From positions 1 to 26,538 of the IMG/VR virus record IMGVR_UViG_3300021442_000731: 26,538 nucleotides of DNA, one strand, 5' to 3'. Positions 6,339 to 20,513 of the stretch are shown here, one piece after another. The position numbers and the translations under genes were made by a program. The notes beneath the pieces were generated by a model. It ran no database searches. It saw nothing but the letters and a program-made list of their open reading frames with translations, and was not told the DNA's origin. The stretch is from a virus. How positions within the stretch are numbered: position 1 is the stretch's first letter; every line of letters starts with the position of its first letter.

Positions 6339-8066
6339 TTAGAAGTTAATTATCAACTTAACATCTTCAATTTGGTCACTTGCTCTTGAAATTGGTGATC
6401 TATTTTCAACATATAAAATATCACCAGTATATTGTTTTAAGTCAGGTCCTTCAATAGCACTTGTATTAGCAGTTGTTGCACCACCGGATACAGTTAAAGC
6501 TTCATTAGATTGAAAAGAACCTGCTGTTTCGTCCCAACCATCTGAAGCATTTGAACCTTTAGTAACTTGAGACAATCTCAACTTACTTGTGCCTGAAGTC
6601 CAATCAACCACTCTTCCGGTTGCACCTGATACTGACCCTGTTACCAATTGATCAGAAGCATATGCAGATCCAGAAAAGGATTGTACTGTAATTCTAAGTG
6701 CCTGGTCAGCTAATGAAATTGTTGCTGGTATTCCTAAATCGTTATCTTGAGTAGTATTAGCAGCATTTGGATGCGAAATTAAACCAATTTTTCTAAAGTC
6801 ATTGGCAACGGTAAATTCACCAGACTCGTCATTTTCAAGCCTTACATTAACCATAACATTATAACCACCTAATTCTTCAGTTGAATCAAAGCCATGACCA
6901 CCTTTTGGTTCAATAACAGCCTGAACTGTTGCATCATCTGTATTCCAAGAATTATTTGCTAATACATTAACAATAGCATTTGTATATCCTGAACCTGCGG
7001 CTATTGTTACAACATCAGTTAACCCTGAAGTATTAGTTCCATTTGCTCTTGCATTCGCAGATTCGCCGTCACCTAAGATTTGTAATCTAGGTGCAACTTG
7101 AAAACTATCACCTTGTCCAGCTGCAGCCGAAGTAGCAGGTGCAAAAGTAATAACTTTTGTGCTACCAACATAATCTGTAATAGTTCCGCCTTGTCCTTCA
7201 GCGTCACCTGATGTAAAGAAAATATCTGAACCAATATAGATATTATCTGCAGCACTAGCAGTACTGTGAATACGAACAGAAGTAGTCGTATGTGAATATG
7301 CACTTCCAAAACCATTATCTAATGTGTTTGTTTCAAAAATCAAATATTCCACACCGCCAACTGTTCCGTTAGCAGTTTTTCTATAAATGTTAACAGCACC
7401 ATCCACAGCACTGTTTTCAACAGCTCTCTGTAAGGTGTTTTCCTGTGTGGCCGAAGCCATAACAGTATTTTGATAACGTACTTGTTGTACTGGAATATAA
7501 TTGGTTGTTACAAATTTCAGTGCCGAAGCAGCAGAAATTGTAAACATATATTTCCATTTATAACCATCAGAACCTGGTGTAACAATAGTTGTTGCTTGAC
7601 CAATTGGTTTTGCTAAACTATTACCCCCAGTGTTATTATTTGCTAAACACTTATATACATTATATTCATCTGTTAAGACATAAAAAGAATTTGCGAGCAT
7701 AGTATTTTCACTATTATTATAAGCGAAATATGGTGTATTGTTTGCCCAATTATATCTAGGAATACAATGTGTTACATCAGTAGATACAACTTTTTTAGCT
7801 GCAATCATATCTTTCCAATGATTATAATAAGTATTTGAAACTGAATCGGTGGGTGTAGGAGGTACTGTGTCTGTATCTGCCGCCGCGGCTCCTGCTACAT
7901 TAGCCCAGTTCTGGACACCACCGATAAAAAGATACATATTAGATTCTAAGTATGTATCGCCCGCGACTGTGTTCGCAAAAGTCGTCATTCCGCGATCTTC
8001 GTCAAAAGACTCCCGAAACTGTCTTGCATTGAACATTCTAAATTTATTTGTTACTAAAGCCGGCAT
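6339..8066 (-). CDS. 8: Baseplate wedge protein gp8-like (575 aa)
   Basis: Baseplate wedge subunit; in T4, gp8 dimers bind gp7 and gp10 in each wedge. The N-terminal 200 residues match the gp8 type of marine T4-like phages: TNKFRMFNARQFRESF, then NMYLFIGGVQNW, IPRYNW, FYVLTDEYNVYKCL and DGYKWKYMFTISAA.ALKF. At 575 residues it is much longer than T4 gp8 (334), and the extra part is beta-rich: a Gly-Tyr repeat near residue 360 (VTIAAGSGYT) and a SGATGRVVDW unit near the C-terminus. The ATG at 8064-8066 is preceded by a GGAG ribosome site 7 bases upstream. It follows the gp7-like gene by 28 bases, the same order as 7-8 in T4. No motif suggests an enzyme. Confidence 0.88.
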   Translation of the reverse strand: MPALVTNKFRMFNARQFRESFDEDRGMTTFANTVAGDTYLESNMYLFIGGVQNWANVAGAAAADTDTVPPTPTDSVSNTYYNHWKDMIAAKKVVSTDVTHCIPRYNWANNTPYFAYNNSENTMLANSFYVLTDEYNVYKCLANNNTGGNSLAKPIGQATTIVTPGSDGYKWKYMFTISAASALKFVTTNYIPVQQVRYQNTVMASATQENTLQRAVENSAVDGAVNIYRKTANGTVGGVEYLIFETNTLDNGFGSAYSHTTTSVRIHSTASAADNIYIGSDIFFTSGDAEGQGGTITDYVGSTKVITFAPATSAAAGQGDSFQVAPRLQILGDGESANARANGTNTSGLTDVVTIAAGSGYTNAIVNVLANNSWNTDDATVQAVIEPKGGHGFDSTEELGGYNVMVNVRLENDESGEFTVANDFRKIGLISHPNAANTTQDNDLGIPATISLADQALRITVQSFSGSAYASDQLVTGSVSGATGRVVDWTSGTSKLRLSQVTKGSNASDGWDETAGSFQSNEALTVSGGATTANTSAIEGPDLKQYTGDILYVENRSPISRASDQIEDVKLIINF

Positions 8067-8094: not shown

Positions 8095-11000
8095 TTACTC
8101 TAAAACATGTTGAGCAACACCATCAATTCGTCCTTCCGGGAAGTATTTATTGGCTCGCTCATGAACGTTAAACGTTTGTGTTGTATAATTACCTACAATA
8201 TATTTAGCATCAAATTTACTGTAAATATTCATTCGTTCCCTATAATTACTACCTGTATTTATAAGGTTTTCATATAAGAGATAGTCATTCTCGATTTTCA
8301 ACTTACCCATAGTGGATGTTGCATCAGTTGTGCCGTCTTCCACTAATAATTCATCACCATCTTCGAGAAGCATCCCATCTTCTTCTTCTAATATAATATT
8401 TATATCATCAAATAGTATAGTCGACCCAGAAACAATATTTTCAACCGGTGTCGGATTCTGTAAGAAGGTTAATTCTAGGCTTAAGCCTGCGTATTCTCCA
8501 ACTTCGTCATAGTCATACACATCACCAATGCGCGGAACTGTTGAAATTGGACAATATGTTCTCCACGGCCAACTGTACTTGACTTTATCCCATGTTGGCG
8601 AATATGTACCATGAATAGGTGTATTCGCTGTTATTAATAATGTTTGTTCGGTTCCTTGTTGTCCGCCAAGTGTTTTTCCGATTATATTAAGTGGGTGATT
8701 ACTATAAGCCACATTTAATTTTACAGAGGCATCTCTATAGTCAACATAAAGTGTTGTATCCGTTGCCCATGTAAAAGATGTTTCTGCACCTTGGAAGAAG
8801 GTTGCCATCTCATGTGTTTGGTCTTTTGTTACTACTTCTGCCCAATTACCTGACAAACAATCTTCTTTTACAATACCAAGTAAGGAATGGACACTATCTA
8901 GTTGTGGTTTAGGTGTACCATTTACTTCACAAAATACTTTTTGAACTTTTCCATTAGACATCAAACCTACTACATTTCCTTCTACTAAATCCTCATTTGC
9001 TTGATAAACATGTAATTTCCATTGTGGGAAAGACAATTCTAATTGATTTACAGATGTTGCTTTTCCTAATTTAATTCTGTCCAAACTATCCGCAGAAGTT
9101 ATTGTAGGTGCTGCGGTAGTAATCCATCTTTCTATTCCTTCGTCGGGAGTCGCACTATAATTAGGATAGTATTCTTCTCCAGGATTTAAATCATAAACTC
9201 TTTCCGCTGTAGAATCTGTATCTCTAACTTCAACAAATTCACCAACCGCACCATCTTGTTCCACTATCCCTAACAATGAATGAACATAATTAATTCTTGG
9301 AAAACAAACACTTCCTGTTTGATATACTTGTTGAATTGTTCCGTCTGTTCTTAATCCTACAACTTGTCCTGCCCATACTTTTGCAACCGCTACTTCAAAT
9401 AAATTATCTGTCCGTAATGGATTATTTAATCTTTTATCTTTAGGTCTTGCATAAGACTGTCCATATTCAAAGGTTGGTTGTCTATAAGTTCCTCTTGCAT
9501 CGGTATCTGGTGTATTTACAGCTGTAGCCGGTCGAACTTGCATTAAATCAGTATCACGAACTACTATTTTATCTTCCGTTTTTATTGGTCCACCAAAGTC
9601 CGCATGATGATCACAATATGCAAATAATACATCTTCTGGGATATACTTTCCGGCTAATGTAGTTTCATATGTATAATCTGGAATTTTAAAATCTACATAA
9701 GATCCTCCGGTTCCAGGAGTACCTACAAGAGTGCTAGGAAATTCCATACTTGATGCCCAACTTCCATTATGTTCTCCATCAAGCACACTAGCAAATTTTA
9801 TTGCATGACTTGAATTAGTACTGTCTTCTTGCCAAAAACGATATGTAACACCTTTAATAAGTTTTATTGGCCATGCATTATCATTAATATTCACACCATC
9901 AAAAAGAAAATTAGAACTTGCAACTGTTACCGTTATTTCTCGTAATGCAGAATTCGGATATTCTATTGTAGATCTTGAAATAACTCTTTGGTTAAACATT
10001 TCTATTGGCAGAAACGTTTCTGTATCAATATATGTTGCAACGCCTGTTAAGTTTGGTAATGAGGCCGTTGCCATTCTTATAGGTAAAGTAGGCTCTTTCC
10101 ACGACAATACTGAAATAGTAGCATCACCAACTAATTCAATAGTTTCTTCACCATAAGATACATATGTTGTAATTGTAGGCATTACAAATTGGCCGTCAGG
10201 GGAACGATACTTTCCTAATATACCTATCTCTAACCAATAATCTGTGCCTCCTTTACGTACTAGATCCGGATTTCCATCTCCACCTAGGCCCCAATAGGTG
10301 TCGGGCGGTCTTTGTGCTCCTGCAGTTGCACCGGCAGCATTGGTCGAATGTATTGGGCCCCATCTATTTTCTGTATTATAGTGAGTTGACTTGCCCCATA
10401 ATGAAACTCCGCCATATGCACTGTGGCCTGTACATTCATTTCCTTCATAGTGACCAGGCCTTATATATTCTGCGATTACATTTGGATACCAAGGAGCAAT
10501 TTTCGTACTTTCATTAAGGGTATTTGTTTGATCATGCTCTATAAAATGGTGCTGTATTTCAACCCTTCCAGCTACTGATTGCTGGTATGGAGTATTTGAA
10601 GCAGGGCCAAATTGTCCTTGTAAATCTCCTCTATAATTCTTTTCATAATCCCATCCGAGACCATTTAACCAAGTAGTATCATCAATTCTTCCTAAGTGAA
10701 ATGCAAAATTAGTCTTTGATGTATCAGAACCAAATCCTACTGTTCGTGGATCCAAAAATTCAACATGATAATTATGTATGATACCTACATCAAAATTAAT
10801 TAATCCATCTACACTGGTATAAGGCATCATTGTTTGATTATAGCCCTTCCTCATATCCTTATCAATTGGGCCATATTCTGGAACATACGATGGAGTTCTA
10901 TCAACAAACAACTCCATTATCTTCTCTGTTTCAGAATCTGCATCGATTGACATACTTATAATAAATTCAATGCCTATTTCCCCAAATACGTTCCATCCAG

Positions 11001-14000
11001 CAGGGTGAACAAAAGATCTTACCATATCTCTAAATTCACTAATTTGAATATCAGATCTTAAAACATATGAAAAATCTTGATAATAATAAGAATCTTGTAT
11101 TCTAATAATATCACTAACCATTCCTAATTTGGATTTAAATGTACCGGGATAATTTGTTATAGTAGTTCGTTTAGCGGTAAAGGTCGCGTTATTATCACCT
11201 GTAGGTGCAGTAACTATAGGAACAGTAGTATAGTTTATACCAGCTTGTGAAATTACAACAGATTTAATAGCACCGGTTTTTAAAGCGCCAGATCTTAATA
11301 CAGCATTATTACCATAATTCGAAATTGCTTCATATGACTTAACATTTGATGATGCAAGGGCAGCTGTTCTAGCACCAGAAAGTGATATTACAGTTTCCCC
11401 AGCTGTAAAATCATCCTGCGGTTCCAATATCATAAATGTTTCTGGTTCATCTGCAGTATTAAATCCTTCGTATTCAATTTTTCCACGTGATGTAATATCA
11501 ACAATCTCCATCTTATCCATATGCAAATCATATGAAGTAGAACTTGTTGTATTAACATATAAAAATAATGAATGATATGAATTAGTAGGATGAATAGTAA
11601 ATTTGCCTTCATATGTATAAACTTGATCTTTATTAGTAGTAGCAACATCTTTATAAATTAGTACTTGTGTTAATCCTCCGGTTGCTCCATCAGATTCAAA
11701 ATTTACATCTGCGGCTGAACTACCATATTTTAAAATAACATTATTTAAAACCTTACTAGCTCTAAAGCTTACTCTTCCAATATATTGATCACCGGGTTTT
11801 AATATATTTTCATATTCTTCATCTACGCTATTATTTAAACCTTTAAGTCCAACATATGTTTCTAATTGATCATTAACAGCAATTTTGCCGCTATATGAAC
11901 CATATATTGTATTTGAAGATTCAATAGAAAGAGTATTATTACCTGTATCAAGTGATGAATCTGTCCAAGATTCATTCCCATTGTAGGATATTGTAACTGC
12001 GCCACCTACAGGTACACCTTTTCGTTTAGTTGAAAAAGAATAAAGTCCAGATGTATTATTTTCAAATGTTCCAATGTTATTTAAAAGAACATTTTCATCT
12101 TCAAGGGAAAATTGTGTATCTACTTCTTTTACCTTCATTGTACTAAAAGTAGAATTTGCAGTAGAATTAACAATTGGTTGTATTACTTGTACTTTTTTAC
12201 CTGAAGATTGGCCTATAATATATTCACCAAATTTATATTTTCCTACAACATCTTCACCAAAATTTAAATATGCTAATGCAGCCGTATTTTTTCCTGTAAT
12301 TGGGTCCTCAAATTCATATGACTTTTTCCCTAAAATAGTTTGATTAGACGCTTCATATGATGGCCCCTTTATATAATCAATACCAGTAGTTATAACTTGT
12401 ACATTAGAAATAGCACCGAATGGTGTAAAAGTATATTCTGTTGCTCCGTAATAACTATCAATGGAATAAGTATTATCCCCTAATTGATTTCCTTCTATTT
12501 CATAATAACTAGCCGGTTTAATTGAATTGATTTGAAACAGACTTGATTTACCAGGAACGGCTGTAGTATTTGCACTATAATATAAATCTCCATAACTATT
12601 TTGAACAAAGTTTGATGATATGTCACTTTCTATTACATAAACAAAGCATGAAGAATTCACTGATGGTCCAGCAATTGTGCCTTTGGTTCCTGTTTTAGAA
12701 TCATATATGTAAAACCCTGGTTGAATATCATCTTCAAAATTCACTGTAGCTAAAAGAATATTATCACCTTCGTCTGCTGTACCATCTGTACTATTAATTA
12801 CAATCCTACCATCACCTTCTTCAAGTAAAATATTTGCTCCGCCGTCCTCCTCATCTTGATTTATTACCTCCGCTACCCATGTAGTAGTATTACTTGAACT
12901 AAAATGGGTATTAATATTTTCAGGATACCTTACATCACCTGGATCATCAACAGAAAATGAAAATGCATTTAAAGAAATAGCGGCTGGAGCTTCGCCACCT
13001 TCTGCGGTTGAAATTACTTTATTAATTACCGAATCTGAAGTTCTAAATTTTCCTGTTTCAAGAACTCCACGAATAGCGCCAGTGTGATTAGAACCTAAAG
13101 TTCCGGTGCTATTAACTATTAACATCTCGCCGCCCATATAGCCATTACCACCATCATCAACAATAATTTCATCAATGGCACCATTAGCAGTTGACCCTAC
13201 ACGAGCAACAGCACCTTTTCCAGCGCCACCTGTAATTATAAGTTCATCGTTAACTTTATAAGCTGTACCATTACTTACAATATCAATTTCACCAATAACC
13301 GCAATACAAGTTCCTCTTGAAGATTCCTCTGGAAATGGCAGTGCTTTAACAGGATCGGAAGAACTATCACTACCCATAAGTTCATCTATAGTTGATTCTG
13401 TAACGTCGACATATGCTTCAATTGTTGCTATTGTTTCGCCGGGTTGAAAATCAGAATAGATATCAAAACGAGCATCATACCCTTTAACATAATCTGTCAA
13501 ATATAATTCTGTTACTGCAGTCGATCCTTCAACATAAGAAATAGAATTATCAACTGTTGCTGTAGCTTGAGAAAGTTCGCCTTTAATAACTTTACTATTA
13601 AAATCATCAGGATTTAGGGCAGTACCTGTATAAACTTTAATCGACTGCGATGAACTCCATGTTCCATCAGAAGGTCTTAATAATCTTTCTTTTGGATATA
13701 TAAAACTTAATTGATCAGAACCATATACAGTTCTCCATAACCAAAGAAAAGAATCTTCTGTACCTCTACTTCTATAAATGTCTCTTGCAGTTTTGACTGC
13801 TTGTCGTAAATCACCAACTGCACTAAAAGGAATATTTTGTAAGAAATCTTCTCTAAATTGTTGTAACATGTAGTTATCTGCAGCATCTACATCAGTCATT
13901 AAATCTATGTCAGCTGCGCCACGAAGAGGATTTCTCAACAAATCTTTATCTGTTTTCCCCACAGTCGCTTTAGCTCGAGTTGATCTACCTCTAACAGACT

Positions 14001-14748
14001 CCCCATGCATTAAAACTATTCCATTAATAGGTCGCGCAAATAATAAGTGAGGACTTAAATTATATTTCGGAGAAGTTGTATTTGCTGTTTCCAAATATTT
14101 GCCGGCTGGTACATCTTTTGCTTGGATACCGGTTACTAAACATTTGGAACCTGATACGGCACCTTCGATTACTTCACCAATAGCGAATGTAGCATCAGTG
14201 CCTCTTTCTGATTCAACTATAATTTCAGTATTAGCTGTTCCATCTTCTGGTGAGTCTTCCTTTACAACTCTAGAAGCGGCAGTATATTCTGTATAAGAAG
14301 TTGAAGGAGGATCTTTTATTGCTATGCCGTAGTTGCCACCATTTGCGCCACCTTTTCTAGGCATATAAAATATAAGGCCTTTTAATTCTTCTAATTCTAA
14401 TTCATAAACTGTTGAACCATCATCTGTGGCGGCTAGAGCAGGACCTTTATTTCCATAAACAGGATAATAGTGCCCGAACTGCATTCCTGCTTCAGTAGAT
14501 TCCGCATCGTCTGAAGGCTCATAAATAAAATTTCTTTGATCTAAAGCAGTTCCTCTAACATAATATGCTCCATCATCATCTTCTTGGACAATATTATATT
14601 CATCTAATTCTAAATCAGTATATTCTATTTGATAGGATTCTAAAAATTCAAAATACTTTGTCATGAAGACAGGAAGATTACTTCCCTCTTCGGTAAAGAA
14701 AGCCGGTAATTGATTTTGAATTATTTCAGATATTCTATTGTCGGCCAT
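8095..14748 (-). CDS. Giant gp7-like baseplate wedge protein with cupredoxin-like domain (2217 aa)
   Basis: Probably the counterpart of T4 gp7, the wedge scaffold, from its place between gp6 and gp8 and its modules; T4 gp7 is only 1032 residues. Residues 11-55 (QNQLPAFFTEEGSNLPVFMT) and 290-366 (FLQNIPFSAVGD.RQ, then YRSRGTEDSF and LLRPSDGTW) match the large wedge proteins of marine T4-like phages. About 1220-1262 is another such segment ending RSFVHPAGWNVFGEIG. Then come a His/Trp-rich stretch (about 1326-1471), a cupredoxin-like domain (about 1603-1725; His1648, Cys1712, His1715, Phe1718) and two copies of a 60-residue repeat (1784-1841, 1912-1973). Gly-Tyr beta repeats are scattered through it. 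The ATG shares one base with the gp6 stop (TAATG), implying coupled translation. No signal peptide or membrane helix is evident. Assignment to gp7 is moderately sure, to a baseplate structural protein very sure. Confidence 0.78.
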   Translation of the reverse strand: MADNRISEIIQNQLPAFFTEEGSNLPVFMTKYFEFLESYQIEYTDLELDEYNIVQEDDDGAYYVRGTALDQRNFIYEPSDDAESTEAGMQFGHYYPVYGNKGPALAATDDGSTVYELELEELKGLIFYMPRKGGANGGNYGIAIKDPPSTSYTEYTAASRVVKEDSPEDGTANTEIIVESERGTDATFAIGEVIEGAVSGSKCLVTGIQAKDVPAGKYLETANTTSPKYNLSPHLLFARPINGIVLMHGESVRGRSTRAKATVGKTDKDLLRNPLRGAADIDLMTDVDAADNYMLQQFREDFLQNIPFSAVGDLRQAVKTARDIYRSRGTEDSFLWLWRTVYGSDQLSFIYPKERLLRPSDGTWSSSQSIKVYTGTALNPDDFNSKVIKGELSQATATVDNSISYVEGSTAVTELYLTDYVKGYDARFDIYSDFQPGETIATIEAYVDVTESTIDELMGSDSSSDPVKALPFPEESSRGTCIAVIGEIDIVSNGTAYKVNDELIITGGAGKGAVARVGSTANGAIDEIIVDDGGNGYMGGEMLIVNSTGTLGSNHTGAIRGVLETGKFRTSDSVINKVISTAEGGEAPAAISLNAFSFSVDDPGDVRYPENINTHFSSSNTTTWVAEVINQDEEDGGANILLEEGDGRIVINSTDGTADEGDNILLATVNFEDDIQPGFYIYDSKTGTKGTIAGPSVNSSCFVYVIESDISSNFVQNSYGDLYYSANTTAVPGKSSLFQINSIKPASYYEIEGNQLGDNTYSIDSYYGATEYTFTPFGAISNVQVITTGIDYIKGPSYEASNQTILGKKSYEFEDPITGKNTAALAYLNFGEDVVGKYKFGEYIIGQSSGKKVQVIQPIVNSTANSTFSTMKVKEVDTQFSLEDENVLLNNIGTFENNTSGLYSFSTKRKGVPVGGAVTISYNGNESWTDSSLDTGNNTLSIESSNTIYGSYSGKIAVNDQLETYVGLKGLNNSVDEEYENILKPGDQYIGRVSFRASKVLNNVILKYGSSAADVNFESDGATGGLTQVLIYKDVATTNKDQVYTYEGKFTIHPTNSYHSLFLYVNTTSSTSYDLHMDKMEIVDITSRGKIEYEGFNTADEPETFMILEPQDDFTAGETVISLSGARTAALASSNVKSYEAISNYGNNAVLRSGALKTGAIKSVVISQAGINYTTVPIVTAPTGDNNATFTAKRTTITNYPGTFKSKLGMVSDIIRIQDSYYYQDFSYVLRSDIQISEFRDMVRSFVHPAGWNVFGEIGIEFIISMSIDADSETEKIMELFVDRTPSYVPEYGPIDKDMRKGYNQTMMPYTSVDGLINFDVGIIHNYHVEFLDPRTVGFGSDTSKTNFAFHLGRIDDTTWLNGLGWDYEKNYRGDLQGQFGPASNTPYQQSVAGRVEIQHHFIEHDQTNTLNESTKIAPWYPNVIAEYIRPGHYEGNECTGHSAYGGVSLWGKSTHYNTENRWGPIHSTNAAGATAGAQRPPDTYWGLGGDGNPDLVRKGGTDYWLEIGILGKYRSPDGQFVMPTITTYVSYGEETIELVGDATISVLSWKEPTLPIRMATASLPNLTGVATYIDTETFLPIEMFNQRVISRSTIEYPNSALREITVTVASSNFLFDGVNINDNAWPIKLIKGVTYRFWQEDSTNSSHAIKFASVLDGEHNGSWASSMEFPSTLVGTPGTGGSYVDFKIPDYTYETTLAGKYIPEDVLFAYCDHHADFGGPIKTEDKIVVRDTDLMQVRPATAVNTPDTDARGTYRQPTFEYGQSYARPKDKRLNNPLRTDNLFEVAVAKVWAGQVVGLRTDGTIQQVYQTGSVCFPRINYVHSLLGIVEQDGAVGEFVEVRDTDSTAERVYDLNPGEEYYPNYSATPDEGIERWITTAAPTITSADSLDRIKLGKATSVNQLELSFPQWKLHVYQANEDLVEGNVVGLMSNGKVQKVFCEVNGTPKPQLDSVHSLLGIVKEDCLSGNWAEVVTKDQTHEMATFFQGAETSFTWATDTTLYVDYRDASVKLNVAYSNHPLNIIGKTLGGQQGTEQTLLITANTPIHGTYSPTWDKVKYSWPWRTYCPISTVPRIGDVYDYDEVGEYAGLSLELTFLQNPTPVENIVSGSTILFDDINIILEEEDGMLLEDGDELLVEDGTTDATSTMGKLKIENDYLLYENLINTGSNYRERMNIYSKFDAKYIVGNYTTQTFNVHERANKYFPEGRIDGVAQHVLE
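8830..9015 (-). repeat. Second copy of a 60-residue internal repeat in the gp7-like protein
   Basis: Encodes residues 1912-1973. It has the pattern EGNVVGLMSNGKVQKVF, then SVHSLLGIVKED and NWAEVV, which aligns with residues 1784-1841 of the same protein. The shape (a site where value changes are followed by a Gly-Ile-Val strand and a Glu-Val strand) resembles small decoration-type beta folds, but I cannot name the family. Confidence 0.7.
9227..9399 (-). repeat. First copy of a 60-residue internal repeat in the gp7-like protein
   Basis: Encodes residues 1784-1841: AGQVVGLRTDGTIQQVY, then YVHSLLGIVEQD and EFVEV. It is about 128 residues upstream of the second copy. Only the protein pattern is conserved; the DNA of the copies has diverged, so the duplication is old. 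Confidence 0.7.
9565..9942 (-). other. Cupredoxin-like domain region within the gp7-like gene
   Basis: Encodes about residues 1603-1728. The order of elements is REITVTVASSNFLFDGV, YRFWQEDSTNSSHAIKF, a LVGTPGTGGSYVDFKI strand and AYCDHHADFGG. This matches the plastocyanin-like module seen in many marine phage structural proteins, which typically ends YYYC..H.GMGG. Candidate type 1 copper ligands are His1648, Cys1712 and His1715; the usual axial Met position is Phe1718. Confidence 0.6.
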
Positions 14749-16634
14749 TATGCAGTATTAGCTCCAAAAATTACTTGCGCGGGAATCTCATCAGAAGTTG
14801 CAATCTTAAAGTCACCAGTGAGCAATGAAGTATCAGAAATCATATTAACTACAACATCTTTCTTTTCAACAACAATAACTTGTTCTCTTACGGGAGTTAT
14901 ATCTAAAACGTTGGTTTCTACATATACTTCGATTGTATTATTATTTACAACAGCTTCAACTGTTATAGGTTTAAACGCAACTAAGGTCATTTTACCAGTA
15001 GTATAATCTAATGCTCCAACATTTGAATCAATAATAGCTGTTTCCCCAGCTGCTTCTTTTACAACTTGTATAATTCCATCTTTATCAGCTAATGTACAAG
15101 CATTTTCTACAACTTCAGTTGCTTCATTAGTATATTGAAATTTTGAAGATGTTAGTGTACCTTTATATCCAACATATGGATATTTTAATTGATTTGAAAA
15201 ATTTTGTGCATAGTTAAATGCTTGTGCTAATTCTACTACTACTCGTTTAAATAAAAGTACCGTTGTTTGGTTATTTAAAACGGCAGGATCAGTATTATCA
15301 ATTAAAGTAGTTAATCGAGAATATCTAAACCTTAAATCAAATTTTCCTAATTCATTTTCATTATAACCCAAAGCCACTCTAATAATATTTTCACCTATTT
15401 CTTGTGCGGATTGAATTGTTGCATTTGGATTAAATCTAACATCTGAATTTATTTTTAAATAAAGATAATCAGGAGCAACAATTACCGGAGTAACGGAAAC
15501 CATATTCTTTCTCAATAAAATATCATTTTTAATAGAAGCTTTATCTTTTGAGGTTAAATATAATCCGCTTTTAGGTTTTACTGCAATATATGCTTGTCCA
15601 TATCTTGGAGGATCATTTTCTTCACCTCCCCAACATGTTACAGATTCAGCATTAACCCATTCTTTTTCTACAATTCGTTTATAATCATTTAAAGTAACAC
15701 ATCTATTTTGTGTTTCATATAATTTAGGTGCACCATATTTTATTTGTTCTATTGTTTCTCTGGTGGCACCTCCATAACCTGATGTTGTCGCAGTTACAGC
15801 AACATTTCCATATCCGCCTATTAGATCAACTGCGGTAAAAGTAGATGCTTTATTTGTAATATCTCCATCAGAAATATTTGCTGACAAAATTACTTGGCTT
15901 CCATCTGCTGGTCTAAAACCTACTTTATTATCTCCAAATTGAACTTCAAATTTCCCATCAAATTCTTCATACAAAAAATATACTTTAGATGTTGCTGTTA
16001 CTTTAACGGTATCACTTACTTTATTATAAGTATCTATTATTGTAGCTGTTGGGGAAGCTTTTACTGTAACTGATAATGTTGTAACATCTGTAGTTGGATT
16101 TGGTAAAAGAAATTTTTGTTCCTTATCAGAATAATCAACCGCGTACTTATGAGTTAATCTTATACCTTGGTTTAATTGTACATCATCAACTGTAAATCTA
16201 CCATCAGATCCAATTATCGCGTTATATGAATTCGCAGTCGTAAAAATATATTTGTTATTATCTATAATTGAAGAAAATCTCCTATCTTTTTCTACAACCA
16301 TTGTAGTAGCAGTATCGTTTGGAGTAATATTCAATGTAACAATTGCTTTTGTTCCTTGAACAGATCTAGGCGTATAGCCCATTTGTTTTGCTTTTTGAAC
16401 AACAGAATTTCTAAGTTCTGCTGTGTCTAAAAACATTTCATTTGCTAACATATTTAAATAAAATGAATTATAATAAGTATTATATGCTAGCATATCCATA
16501 ATTACATCCAGTCCAGATCCAGCGAAGTCAAAATTTGCAAATTCACTTTGACTTTTTAAAAAGGCTATCATATTAGCCTTAATAGCCGGCATATCTAGTT
16601 CTGAAACATTTAATTTTGCTACATCTGTTGCCAT
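14748..16634 (-). CDS. 6: Baseplate wedge protein gp6 (628 aa)
   Basis: Wedge subunit that in T4 forms the continuous inner ring of the baseplate and joins neighbouring wedges; it belongs to the baseplate J-like family. Length is close to T4 gp6 (660). The N-terminus fits: FLKSQSEFANFDFAGSGLDV, then DMLAYNTYYNSFYLNMLANE and a GYTPRS strand (residues 25-95). The most telling segment is VTCWGGEENDPPRYGQAYIA near residue 330, followed by VKPKSG. The ATG at 16632-16634 lies 3 bases after the gp25 stop, and the AAGGA ribosome site overlaps that stop (GGTAAGGAATGG), so gp25 and gp6 are probably coupled. The stop shares a base with the start of the gp7-like gene. The order 25-6-7-8 agrees with a wedge-assembly block. 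Confidence 0.93.
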   Translation of the reverse strand: MATDVAKLNVSELDMPAIKANMIAFLKSQSEFANFDFAGSGLDVIMDMLAYNTYYNSFYLNMLANEMFLDTAELRNSVVQKAKQMGYTPRSVQGTKAIVTLNITPNDTATTMVVEKDRRFSSIIDNNKYIFTTANSYNAIIGSDGRFTVDDVQLNQGIRLTHKYAVDYSDKEQKFLLPNPTTDVTTLSVTVKASPTATIIDTYNKVSDTVKVTATSKVYFLYEEFDGKFEVQFGDNKVGFRPADGSQVILSANISDGDITNKASTFTAVDLIGGYGNVAVTATTSGYGGATRETIEQIKYGAPKLYETQNRCVTLNDYKRIVEKEWVNAESVTCWGGEENDPPRYGQAYIAVKPKSGLYLTSKDKASIKNDILLRKNMVSVTPVIVAPDYLYLKINSDVRFNPNATIQSAQEIGENIIRVALGYNENELGKFDLRFRYSRLTTLIDNTDPAVLNNQTTVLLFKRVVVELAQAFNYAQNFSNQLKYPYVGYKGTLTSSKFQYTNEATEVVENACTLADKDGIIQVVKEAAGETAIIDSNVGALDYTTGKMTLVAFKPITVEAVVNNNTIEVYVETNVLDITPVREQVIVVEKKDVVVNMISDTSLLTGDFKIATSDEIPAQVIFGANTA

Positions 16635-17087: not shown

Positions 17088-20000
17088 TTACCAGCCTTCA
17101 TTAGCAAGCTTATCCAAATAATCATAAACTTCATCTGCTTGAGCATTAATGTCTATTAAATAATCTTCGAATTTATTTCTACTAGCTTGTATTTTATCAT
17201 CCTGTGCTTTGGCTGCTTTTTTACCAATAGACAATTCAAAATCCCAAACATCATGAAAAGCAAGATTTACGGGTGGTGAATCTGCGCCACCTGTTTGAAT
17301 AATAGAATCAATTGCTATATGCTGATCATCAATAACTTCTTGAATATATTTTGTAAATGTTCCCTCAGTAAGAGTTACAATTAAAAGATCATCTTGTGAT
17401 ACACCAATAGCATTCCAAGTTTCAGCAATTTCTTCTTCTTCTTCTAATATCATTTCAACACCTCCACCACCAACAAACCCTGTTGATTCCGGAACTGTCC
17501 CATTTATTTCTATAATAGTTCCAACTGGATATTGTGTTGTAGTTCGAAATTTTCCTTCAGCAGCCTGACCAAAACGAGAACCTTGTTCATGTTTTGGTAA
17601 TGTTTTATATTCAGTCCCTGAAACAGTCATGAAAGTAGAAATAGTATTCGCCCTCGCTTTAAATTCTCGTAATCTATATCCTGGATGATAATAATGAGTA
17701 GCATTAGCATTATTTTCTGTTTTATACTTATAATCTGTGTCCCAATCGTCTTTCCGTAGGACTACATCATAAGGTAAAGCTTCTTCTAAATCAAGCTTGA
17801 ACGGTTCATCAAGAACAGCTACAGTTGTATTTGACAGATACTGAACAGTTCTTACTGAGTCTGATCCTGGATTACTAGGATCCATAATAGTGATTGTTGT
17901 ATTCTGTTTTACTTGTCTTTGACCTGCTTCAAAATCATCAACTTCGTCTACAAATTCACCTTTCAAAATTAATAATGATTTTCCTTTAGATCTTAAACTA
18001 CCAGGAATCACATCTGCATCTGGTGTTTCTAGAATCGTATTAATTTCTACTGTTATCAATATTTCATTAATTCTTTGTACCAATAAATCCAATTCATTTA
18101 AATCATTATCTCTCAATCCAATGAGTTCATAAAATACGGCTTCATTTGCGCCAGAAGATAAAAACTTGGGAGGGCTTTGAGTTGGATCCATTACCCCATA
18201 AAGAGGTACATCATTTATTTTTTTTCTTAAACTAGCAGCGCCGCCACCAGTACCATTTAACTTTTTTAAAATATCACCTAAAGCTTTTTTTGTTGCTTTT
18301 AAAAAATCTAATTTTGCTACTCTTAATTCTTCAGGAGTTCTAGGATCACCAACTATGACTTCTTCATCCTCTTCTCCAATAGATCCAGTTGATTTCCAAT
18401 ATACTGCATTAATAATATTTTTACCATCCCAATCTTTTATTAATGGTAATTCACCTGATGTACCATTTAATAAACATTCATAATTAACACCTTTATAATA
18501 TAATAAATCACCTGCATTATATGATTTTTCATCTTTAAAAATAGGTGTTGCTAATTCATCCATCTTCGCGGATTGTTTTTCTTCAGCTGGTGTTTGTTTT
18601 CTTAAACCTAATAATAATGCTAAAGCTTCAATAGATTTAATTAATGGGCCTCCTGTTGGGCCTCCACCTAAGAAACAAACACCGGCACAAAACTTTAATG
18701 CTTCTGGTGGTTTACGAGGCCCTCCAGCTGCTAACATTCTAGATCTAAATTCAGTTGTGCCACCTAATTTAGGGGCCAAATATAAAGTGTATATTCCGGC
18801 TGCAGGAATACCTATCGCAAATAATTCTAGAATTTCTGTAACTTCATTAGAAAATGCTTGAAGTTCATCCATTTTTGAATCTAAATATTTTATCATTGGT
18901 TCAATTGACTTCTTAGCACTTTGAACTGTTCCTTTCATTCCTCTAACGTGACCTTCAGTTCTGTCTAAAAGCGCGCCCATTGGAGGAATTAATTCTTCTA
19001 ATCTCTTCCCTCTCCAATCTGGTTTTTCAGGCTGGCCTCCATCATAAAATTCTTCAACTATTTTTCCAGCAACACAGATTCCGTCATCAATTTGGGCATA
19101 TTCACTTCCAGCTGGACTACCTGCAACGGATGGGTCCTCATCTCCGGACTTCTCCGCATATCCTCCATCGGCATATGTGATAGTGCTGGGTAATGGATAG
19201 CCTGTATCGTCTAGTTCAACAATATCTTTCTTTGTAGTTGGTAAAGCCTCAAAAACAATATCACCTTTTTTAAATTCGTCCCCTGAAGTAATATATTCAA
19301 TTTCTAATTCTTGTTGTTGATAGGGCACTAAATTTTTATTTACTCTAATTTGAGTATGTCTTTTTCTAATTTCGCTAGATGTTAATTCAATATTATGTGA
19401 ATCTGTCAAATGGGAAGGAGTTGTTAATTCCTGTATTATCATACTTTCAGTACTGATGACATTAATAACCCTCGCTTTTACACCTGCTCTATTATTCATC
19501 AAAATTTTTGGGGTTTTTTTCTGGTCCATAACATTAAACTGGCCCATTGTATCATCTTCTTCTTCATAGCCTCCACTCGCCCCACCTACATTCCCCGTGA
19601 CCACCCCCCCGACCGAGGTTGCTTTAATATTTTTATTACTTATCCAAGATACTTTTATAGTATGTTTCTTTTTGGCATTTTTAGTCCATATTGCCTTTAC
19701 ACTTTTTATTAATTTTTCAAAAGATTCTAAATCAATAAGTTTTTGAAAGGCTTCTAAAATCTCCATAAACTTATCAAAATCTGGCGCGCCAGCAATAATA
19801 ATAATTCCACCTACAGTTGCAGAAGGTGTAAATATTGGTCTGCCAGACAAATAATAATCTTCAGACATTACAGTGTCTGCAGAAATATCTTGGCGTCCAA
19901 CAATTTTAGGTGTATCATTTTCATCATCAAAAGACCTATCAATAGTTTGTAATATCCCACCAGGTGTAAGAGTTATTAATCCTAATGCCTGATTAATGTA

Positions 20001-20513
20001 TATAAAAGCATTTTCTGTGGTTAAATCAATATCACCATCAAATTTTTTGAACGTAGTATCTTCAACATATAATTGTTCGCCTGAATCAATATCTTTTGCT
20101 AACACATCAGTTCCCAGATTACTTGCTTTTGTTAGCTCAAAAGGCGGCTTCTTAGCCCTCGTTGCCTTTGCATAATATTTGCCACCTATAAATAATCCTC
20201 CTGTAACAGGGTGTCTTTGTAAAGTACTTTTAGCGTCAACTGATTCAGCGTGAACAGGCAAATAATAAAACCCTAATCCTCGTAAATCTTCTAATAATTT
20301 TAAAATTTCATCCAGAATTGCATCAATTGCGGCAAAAAGCGGATCTACAGTAGCAAGCAACAATGCTTTATTAATTTCGTAAACGTTTTTAATAAAAGCT
20401 GCATTCTCTTTATGAAGTTCTAAACCTTTTTGAGCGGCTTCAAAAAACCCTTTTAAATGTGATATATCACCTAGGGTTTGGGAAGACCATTGATCAGCTT
20501 GTTCGTCCGCCAT
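17088..20513 (-). CDS. Unrecognised large baseplate-associated structural protein (1141 aa)
   Basis: No T4 counterpart that I recognise. Large proteins beside gp5 with a similar N-terminal pattern (hydrophobic helix, then L.DLR..G.YYLP) occur in marine T4-like phages, as I recall them. Residues about 15-75 are helical (NAAFIKNVYEINKALLLATV then ILDEILKLLEDLRGLGFYYL). A Gly-rich linker near residue 300 (SVGGVVTGNVGGASGGYEEE) is encoded by a G-rich tract. Residues about 510-600 combine a helical RTEGHVRGMKGTVQSAKKSI segment with an apolar FAIGIPAAGIYTLYLAP, and about 657-710 resemble a carbohydrate-binding module (SYNAGDLLYYKGVNYECL with later Trp). The C-terminus is again helical. The ATG follows an AGGGA ribosome site and overlaps the small upstream gene by 20 bases. 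Between spike and wedge genes, it may bridge hub and wedge or touch the cell surface; this is speculation. Confidence 0.75.
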   Translation of the reverse strand: MADEQADQWSSQTLGDISHLKGFFEAAQKGLELHKENAAFIKNVYEINKALLLATVDPLFAAIDAILDEILKLLEDLRGLGFYYLPVHAESVDAKSTLQRHPVTGGLFIGGKYYAKATRAKKPPFELTKASNLGTDVLAKDIDSGEQLYVEDTTFKKFDGDIDLTTENAFIYINQALGLITLTPGGILQTIDRSFDDENDTPKIVGRQDISADTVMSEDYYLSGRPIFTPSATVGGIIIIAGAPDFDKFMEILEAFQKLIDLESFEKLIKSVKAIWTKNAKKKHTIKVSWISNKNIKATSVGGVVTGNVGGASGGYEEEDDTMGQFNVMDQKKTPKILMNNRAGVKARVINVISTESMIIQELTTPSHLTDSHNIELTSSEIRKRHTQIRVNKNLVPYQQQELEIEYITSGDEFKKGDIVFEALPTTKKDIVELDDTGYPLPSTITYADGGYAEKSGDEDPSVAGSPAGSEYAQIDDGICVAGKIVEEFYDGGQPEKPDWRGKRLEELIPPMGALLDRTEGHVRGMKGTVQSAKKSIEPMIKYLDSKMDELQAFSNEVTEILELFAIGIPAAGIYTLYLAPKLGGTTEFRSRMLAAGGPRKPPEALKFCAGVCFLGGGPTGGPLIKSIEALALLLGLRKQTPAEEKQSAKMDELATPIFKDEKSYNAGDLLYYKGVNYECLLNGTSGELPLIKDWDGKNIINAVYWKSTGSIGEEDEEVIVGDPRTPEELRVAKLDFLKATKKALGDILKKLNGTGGGAASLRKKINDVPLYGVMDPTQSPPKFLSSGANEAVFYELIGLRDNDLNELDLLVQRINEILITVEINTILETPDADVIPGSLRSKGKSLLILKGEFVDEVDDFEAGQRQVKQNTTITIMDPSNPGSDSVRTVQYLSNTTVAVLDEPFKLDLEEALPYDVVLRKDDWDTDYKYKTENNANATHYYHPGYRLREFKARANTISTFMTVSGTEYKTLPKHEQGSRFGQAAEGKFRTTTQYPVGTIIEINGTVPESTGFVGGGGVEMILEEEEEIAETWNAIGVSQDDLLIVTLTEGTFTKYIQEVIDDQHIAIDSIIQTGGADSPPVNLAFHDVWDFELSIGKKAAKAQDDKIQASRNKFEDYLIDINAQADEVYDYLDKLANEGW

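Follow-up and report, generated by a model that had tools for sequence, protein, structure and literature searches.

Why a phage baseplate protein should carry the ligand pattern of a plastocyanin-like copper protein, and what such a segment might do there, is the question raised by this locus, which lies in a viral DNA stretch of 26,538 nucleotides (the window, meaning the whole stretch that was analysed). The gene concerned belongs to a minus-strand baseplate cluster of ~34% GC, in which the order gp25, gp6, the gene for the 2217-aa protein, and gp8 places it between gp6 and gp8. The genes and segments needed to describe this setting are as follows:

6339-8066, minus strand: gp8 baseplate wedge (context), from wedge-model/PHROG matches
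8095-14748, minus strand: 2217-aa baseplate-wedge or virion structural protein at the gp7 position, from wedge-model and PHROG matches and synteny
10978-11103, minus strand: segment (aa 1216-1257) aligned with the last part of the Pfam Baseplate_wedge model, from a Pfam match
14748-16634, minus strand: gp6 baseplate wedge (context), from wedge-model/PHROG matches

The match of the 2217-aa protein to Pfam PF23786 reached 25.2 bits, below the cut-off of 27, and PHROG baseplate-wedge and virion-structural families gave weak profile matches; no sequence match to the PDB was found for this protein. The candidate label "gp7-like" is based on synteny together with these weak profile matches. By gp6, the nearest cultured phages were Methylophilales phage Melnitz and the Pelagibacter phages Mosig and HTVC008M, at 36-38% identity. 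In the same cluster, a protein of 1141 aa (P0006, window 17088-20513) is encoded between a gp5-like hub and gp25; it had no PHROG match and matched a carbohydrate-binding model weakly (CBM_5_12, with 23.3 bits against a cut-off of 26.2).

The preliminary description had recognised a plastocyanin-like pattern in this protein at window positions 9565-9942, and this interval of the minus strand does correspond exactly to residues 1603-1728 of the ORF at 8095-14748. The four key residues were also found where they had been placed, with SSHAIKF starting at residue 1646, GTPGTGGSYV at residue 1676, and the Phe as the third residue after C-x-x-H. The module and its positions are listed below:

9571-9942, minus strand: cupredoxin-like module (aa 1603-1726), from profiles, an AlphaFold2 model, and a PDB fold search
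9805-9807, minus strand: His1648, putative first copper ligand, from motif and family alignment
9613-9615, minus strand: Cys1712, putative copper thiolate ligand, from motif and family alignment
9604-9606, minus strand: His1715, putative second His ligand, from motif and family alignment
9595-9597, minus strand: Phe1718 (codon TTT), axial position, occupied by Met or Tyr in close orthologues, from motif and orthologue alignment

Only one other C-x-x-H is present in the 2217-aa protein, at residue 1439. When an independent profile was used, built from 74 marine-phage copies with the window and its orthologues left out, residues 1605-1725 scored 42.5 bits (E 2.4e-12 for a 1000-protein search), against a best score of 11.9 bits in shuffled controls of the whole protein (n = 1000). 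As judged from these comparisons, the resemblance exceeds chance. A profile of the full alignment, orthologues included, detected one copy of the module in the window record (E 9.7e-34), and the module lies in the C-terminal, phage-specific part of the wedge protein.

An AlphaFold2 model based on 83 aligned sequences gave the module a pLDDT of 82.9 and a pTM of 0.79; a single-sequence model of the domain was discarded (pLDDT 36.7). In the alignment-based model, strand 118-123 is predicted to end at Cys1712 (model residue 123) and the last strand (130-136) to start directly after the axial position (129), so that the penultimate strand closes with the Cys and the axial residue comes immediately before the final one, the placement seen in plastocyanins. 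The best 50 PDB matches of the model (Foldseek) were essentially all of cupredoxin type, including multicopper oxidases, rusticyanin, AcoP, and nitrite reductase, with E values no better than 3.5e-3, a best probability of 0.99, and query-normalised TM scores of 0.32-0.47 among the matches listed. A search of BFVD returned 51 matches of the model at E <= 1e-3, mostly marine phage proteins, and those with names were cyanophage fibre, connector, and virion structural proteins. The Greek-key beta-sandwich of the cupredoxin fold superfamily is thus seen in prediction only. The structure prediction suggested in the preliminary description as a check returned a cupredoxin-type fold, both in the AlphaFold2 model and in the PDB fold search, and such a fold is likely for the module, though not proven.

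The relation of the module to described copper proteins was more distant. Direct search gave no match to PF00127 in the window protein, only 4 of 83 relatives matched that family (best E 0.066), and on sequence grounds the module is not assigned to the plastocyanin/azurin family (PF00127). In hhalign comparisons with amicyanin and plastocyanin, the C-x-x-H motif alone was aligned, at a probability of 8%, and because the profile comparison matched only this motif, we do not claim sequence homology to these proteins. Sequence comparison of the domain with the PDB gave chance matches only, no Pfam or NCBIfam model naming the module was found, and a petE-type plastocyanin gene of host origin was rejected, as the module belongs to a structural protein. 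What the module has in common with amicyanin and plastocyanin is a His followed by C-x-x-H and an axial residue, with the spacing of amicyanin (CTPHPFM, PDB 1aac), and the cupredoxin fold, which in the module is predicted; unlike those soluble electron carriers, it is part of a giant structural protein and has no significant sequence similarity to them. It also resembles the type-1 sites of fungal laccases with axial Phe or Leu in combining His2Cys with a non-coordinating axial residue (PMC6487685), but neither a trinuclear copper cluster nor oxidase domains are apparent in the window protein. Natural type-1 copper sites may have Met, Phe, or Leu as the axial residue; in laccases, those with Phe or Leu are associated with high potentials, and one laccase study found a smaller Cu2+ population at the site when the axial residue was non-coordinating (PMC6487685).

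Ligand conservation was followed along 252 distinct copies, gathered partly with patterns outside the ligand motif (among them the IMG/VR scans) and partly without that precaution (among them the prokaryote-genome search). The His-Cys-His triad was complete in 222 copies, and the Cys was absent in the other 30, of which 21 lacked all three ligands, 8 retained the first His only, and one had a chance His at the second-His position; some of these triad-less members are distant, with long branches and unsure alignment. Not a single copy among the 252 showed the Cys without both His, as would be expected if His1648, Cys1712, and His1715 make up a metal triad. Their arrangement is the His ... Cys-x(2-4)-His of type-1 copper sites in canonical positions, and Phe1718 is among the axial residues (Met, Gln, Leu, or Phe) of such sites. 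The axial residue was Met in 214 of the 222 triad-bearing copies, as anticipated in the preliminary description, in which the related marine modules were said to end in C-x-x-H-x-x-M, and Phe (3), Tyr (3), Leu (1), or Gln (1) in the remaining ones; we know of no natural type-1 site with an axial Tyr. The putative ligand assignment given there is likewise supported, at the level of sequence, by the all-or-none behaviour of the Cys with both His and by the set of residues between which the axial position varies (Met, Phe, Leu, Gln, and Tyr), the first four being known from natural type-1 sites. The presence or absence of the site changed 11 times on the best tree of all copies, with 3 changes forced by supported branches, and because this tree is poorly resolved, we do not claim many independent losses of the triad.

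A tblastn search with a typical copy recovered 78 phage records, from Synechococcus, Prochlorococcus, Pelagibacter, and Methylophilales phages and from uncultured marine ones, and whole-record searches found up to five copies per cyanophage; scans of IMG/VR gave at least 600 rows. In contrast to this abundance, 84,980 prokaryote species genomes yielded 23 loci only, nearly all from marine bacteria and one from a marine archaeal MAG. Some of these loci may be phage contigs, and one is located inside a 1.06-Mb Bacteroidetes contig. A Candidatus Actinomarina protein of 221 aa (L296, 3650-4312) presents a lipoprotein-like N-terminus and one C-terminal copy with His-Cys-His-Met, and it is possibly a cellular relative or the source of the module.

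The C-x-x-H-x-x-M modules of marine phages, found within the PHROG tail-fibre families phrog_693 and phrog_30742, are the same domain by profile and share with the window module an equal triad spacing and the same kinds of virion proteins. They have an axial Met. The window copy differs from them by its Phe, by the greater length of the loop that precedes the Cys strand, and by its location in a wedge protein at the gp7 position. The module was also found in the gp7 gene of cyanophages S-CAM22, P-SSM7, S-MbCM6, and S-CAM8; its other locations in cyanophages are a ~410-aa gene annotated there as gp9, fibre genes, and genes for giant structural proteins. As in the window, the gp7 of S-CAM22 and P-SSM7 carries the module inside a baseplate-wedge gene adjoining gp8, but its architecture is different, with a GHSKIIGMSYDGYPIYGPYGY segment between copies that was not seen in the window protein. 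This segment is read as YHYH-like, so that in both phages (L124, L125) a triad-bearing copy, a YHYH-like segment, and a triad-less copy follow one another; for YHYH domains in jumbo-phage tail proteins, a zinc site and a hydrolase role have been predicted (PMC7824862). Two further cyanophage copies are peculiar. Gene gp080 of PSS2 (L126, 2980-3318) is a free-standing gene of 112 aa that consists of the module alone, is annotated as a baseplate wedge subunit, and shows Asp, Ala, and Thr where the three copper ligands would be. The copy of P-RSM6 (L259), with CHHHTGQGD, presents an axial Gln, which is the axial residue of stellacyanin-type copper sites.

In the lineage of the window itself, the module was present at the same place in 17 of 17 orthologue contigs covering the site, which had been found by their upstream region, and a recent insertion was accordingly rejected. 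The axial residue was Phe (TTT) in the window and in L025-L028, Tyr (TAT) in L023, L024, and L037, and Met (ATG) in L022, L032, L033-L036, and L323, with the triad intact in every one of these orthologues, in two deep clades. When trees were built from the protein without the module (main forks with bootstrap values of 98-100), the Met sequences fell outside the aromatic ones in both clades, and as aromatic residues occur within both and Met is basal in both, replacement of Met by an aromatic residue was recurrent. The axial Phe had been presented as an oddity of this copy; it is indeed rare in the family, but within this lineage aromatic residues replaced Met independently in two clades. The dN/dS of the domain was 0.17-0.49, versus 0.20-0.30 for the whole protein, and in comparisons of Phe copies with Met or Tyr copies it reached 0.38-0.49, versus 0.23-0.29, a faster evolution that could correspond to early decay or to diversification. 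The possibility that the module is a formerly copper-binding one, also raised at the outset, is unlikely for the window copy, given its complete triad and the purifying selection acting on the domain, but it fits many cyanophage copies and the L004-L006 lineage, in which all three ligands were lost and the rest of the domain sequence was kept.

The orthologue alignment also revealed a second conserved element:

10360-10458, minus strand: His/Cys-rich block PGHYEGNECTGHSAYGGVSLWGKSTHYNTENRW (aa 1431-1463; His1433, Cys1439, His1442, His1456), from the orthologue alignment

This block, PGHYEGxxCxGH, is located ~270 residues upstream of the module and was near-invariant in all the triad-bearing orthologues examined, its H-x5-C-x2-H pattern being kept even in the divergent L323. 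The lineage of L005, L006, L030, and L031, in which none of the three ligands remains, has no such block; L324, on a contig that stops short of the module, lacks it as well. This distribution, which goes back to one loss event, suggests a coupling between the block and the copper triad. The block is possibly a second metal site.

Taken together, we consider it rather probable that the module is a display unit of cupredoxin fold whose copper site, three-coordinate and of type-1-like character, stabilises the fold and is not a redox device. Residues ~1603-1726 would form a cupredoxin-fold beta-sandwich in the wedge protein, as one member of a family that has been shuffled between different marine-phage proteins (tail, fibre, and baseplate) and a small number of surface proteins of marine bacteria. 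His1648, Cys1712, and His1715 would make up the type-1-like site with amicyanin spacing, derived from a C-x-x-H-x-x-M parent family, and the bound copper would be three-coordinate because Phe1718 occupies the axial position. The metal, probably taken from the host or from seawater, would rigidify the two loops that hold the ligands, in a module acting as a structural or adhesive unit; under a structural role of this kind, drift at the axial position (Met, Phe, Tyr, Leu, Gln) may occur, and whole copies may lose the site yet keep the fold. The data themselves show the predicted fold, the family, the conservation and coupling of the ligands, and the recurrent axial change. Copper binding, the stabilising role, and a host-facing orientation of the module are what we infer from the data above. 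This structural or display role is favoured because the hosts of the phages with the module are unrelated, one genome can contain several copies, the triad is often lost, and profile searches found no redox-partner domain in the 2217-aa protein; redox sensing, proposed in the preliminary description, found no support.

Other readings have to be weighed against this one. That the fold is another beta-sandwich, for instance Ig-like, with the His/Cys pattern a coincidence of its surface, would agree with TM scores below 0.5 in the PDB matches listed, with the useless single-sequence model, and with the annotation "Ig domain-containing" of one phage relative; however, the alignment-based model is confident, its PDB matches are consistently cupredoxin-type, and the ligands occupy canonical positions in the succession of strands, so we regard it as most improbable. 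Quite improbable, too, is a site for zinc or copper(I), or a pairing of Cys1712 with Cys1439 of the upstream block, in place of a type-1 copper site. The presence of the upstream block in all triad-bearing orthologues and its absence from the triad-less lineage point in that direction, but through one loss event only, and in the wider family the Cys is tied to both His without any upstream block, while the axial Met, Leu, Gln, and Phe are residues of type-1 copper sites. Moreover, disulphides are unexpected in proteins assembled in the cytoplasm, such as this one.

A cupredoxin-fold sandwich acting purely as adhesive or spacer, with no metal in the virion and the triad of the window copy as a leftover, is unlikely but has more in its favour: 30 distinct copies lack the Cys, the L004-L006 lineage keeps its remaining domain sequence after losing all the ligands, the second gp7 copy of S-CAM22, P-SSM7, S-MbCM6, and S-CAM8 is also devoid of them, and the domain outpaces the whole protein in the comparisons of Phe with Met or Tyr copies. 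Against this, every orthologue with an axial Met, Phe, or Tyr, in two deep clades, retains the complete triad, and a Cys never found without both His in 252 copies would be unlikely if the site were idle in most of them. A redox-active site is very unlikely in our opinion; there, the Phe would raise the potential of the copper, and the module would serve for sensing or for electron transfer at the surface of the host. The high potentials that go with an axial Phe or Leu in laccases (PMC6487685) and the repeated changes of the axial residue in the window lineage would suit it, but no partner domain or electron acceptor was found in the protein, the module is common to many virion proteins of phages with unrelated hosts, and triad-less copies are common. 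As a bolder reading, and a long shot, the tails of marine phages could be equipped with a range of copper-bearing modules, their axial residue being tuned (Met, Phe, Tyr, Gln, or Leu) or discarded, with the copper site, perhaps along with the upstream His/Cys site, taking part in adsorption or triggering through copper or the redox state at the host surface.

No description that connects cupredoxins with the baseplates or tail fibres of phages, or with structural proteins of cyanophages, was found in the full text of the open-access literature, which is weak evidence of novelty because only open-access papers are covered; the sole match for copper-binding marine-phage tails, a paper on viral nirK (ISME J. 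2020), was unrelated. If the copper site is real, virions of marine phages would be metalloproteins in a manner for which we found no description, with a bearing on the stability of tail proteins in seawater and on the effect of copper on adsorption. The module family also offers naturally occurring variants of the axial residue and losses of the site, all within one fold, and it serves as a warning for annotation, as small matches resembling copper proteins in marine viruses can be parts of the virion and not photosynthesis genes.

Finally, an internal repeat was spotted by eye C-terminal to the cupredoxin module, at window positions ~8840-9410 (aa ~1780-1970 of the 2217-aa protein, P0001), where two similar segments end in xxVHSLLGIV, one with VCFPRINYVHSLLGIV and the other with VFCEVNGTPKPQLDSVHSLLGIV.
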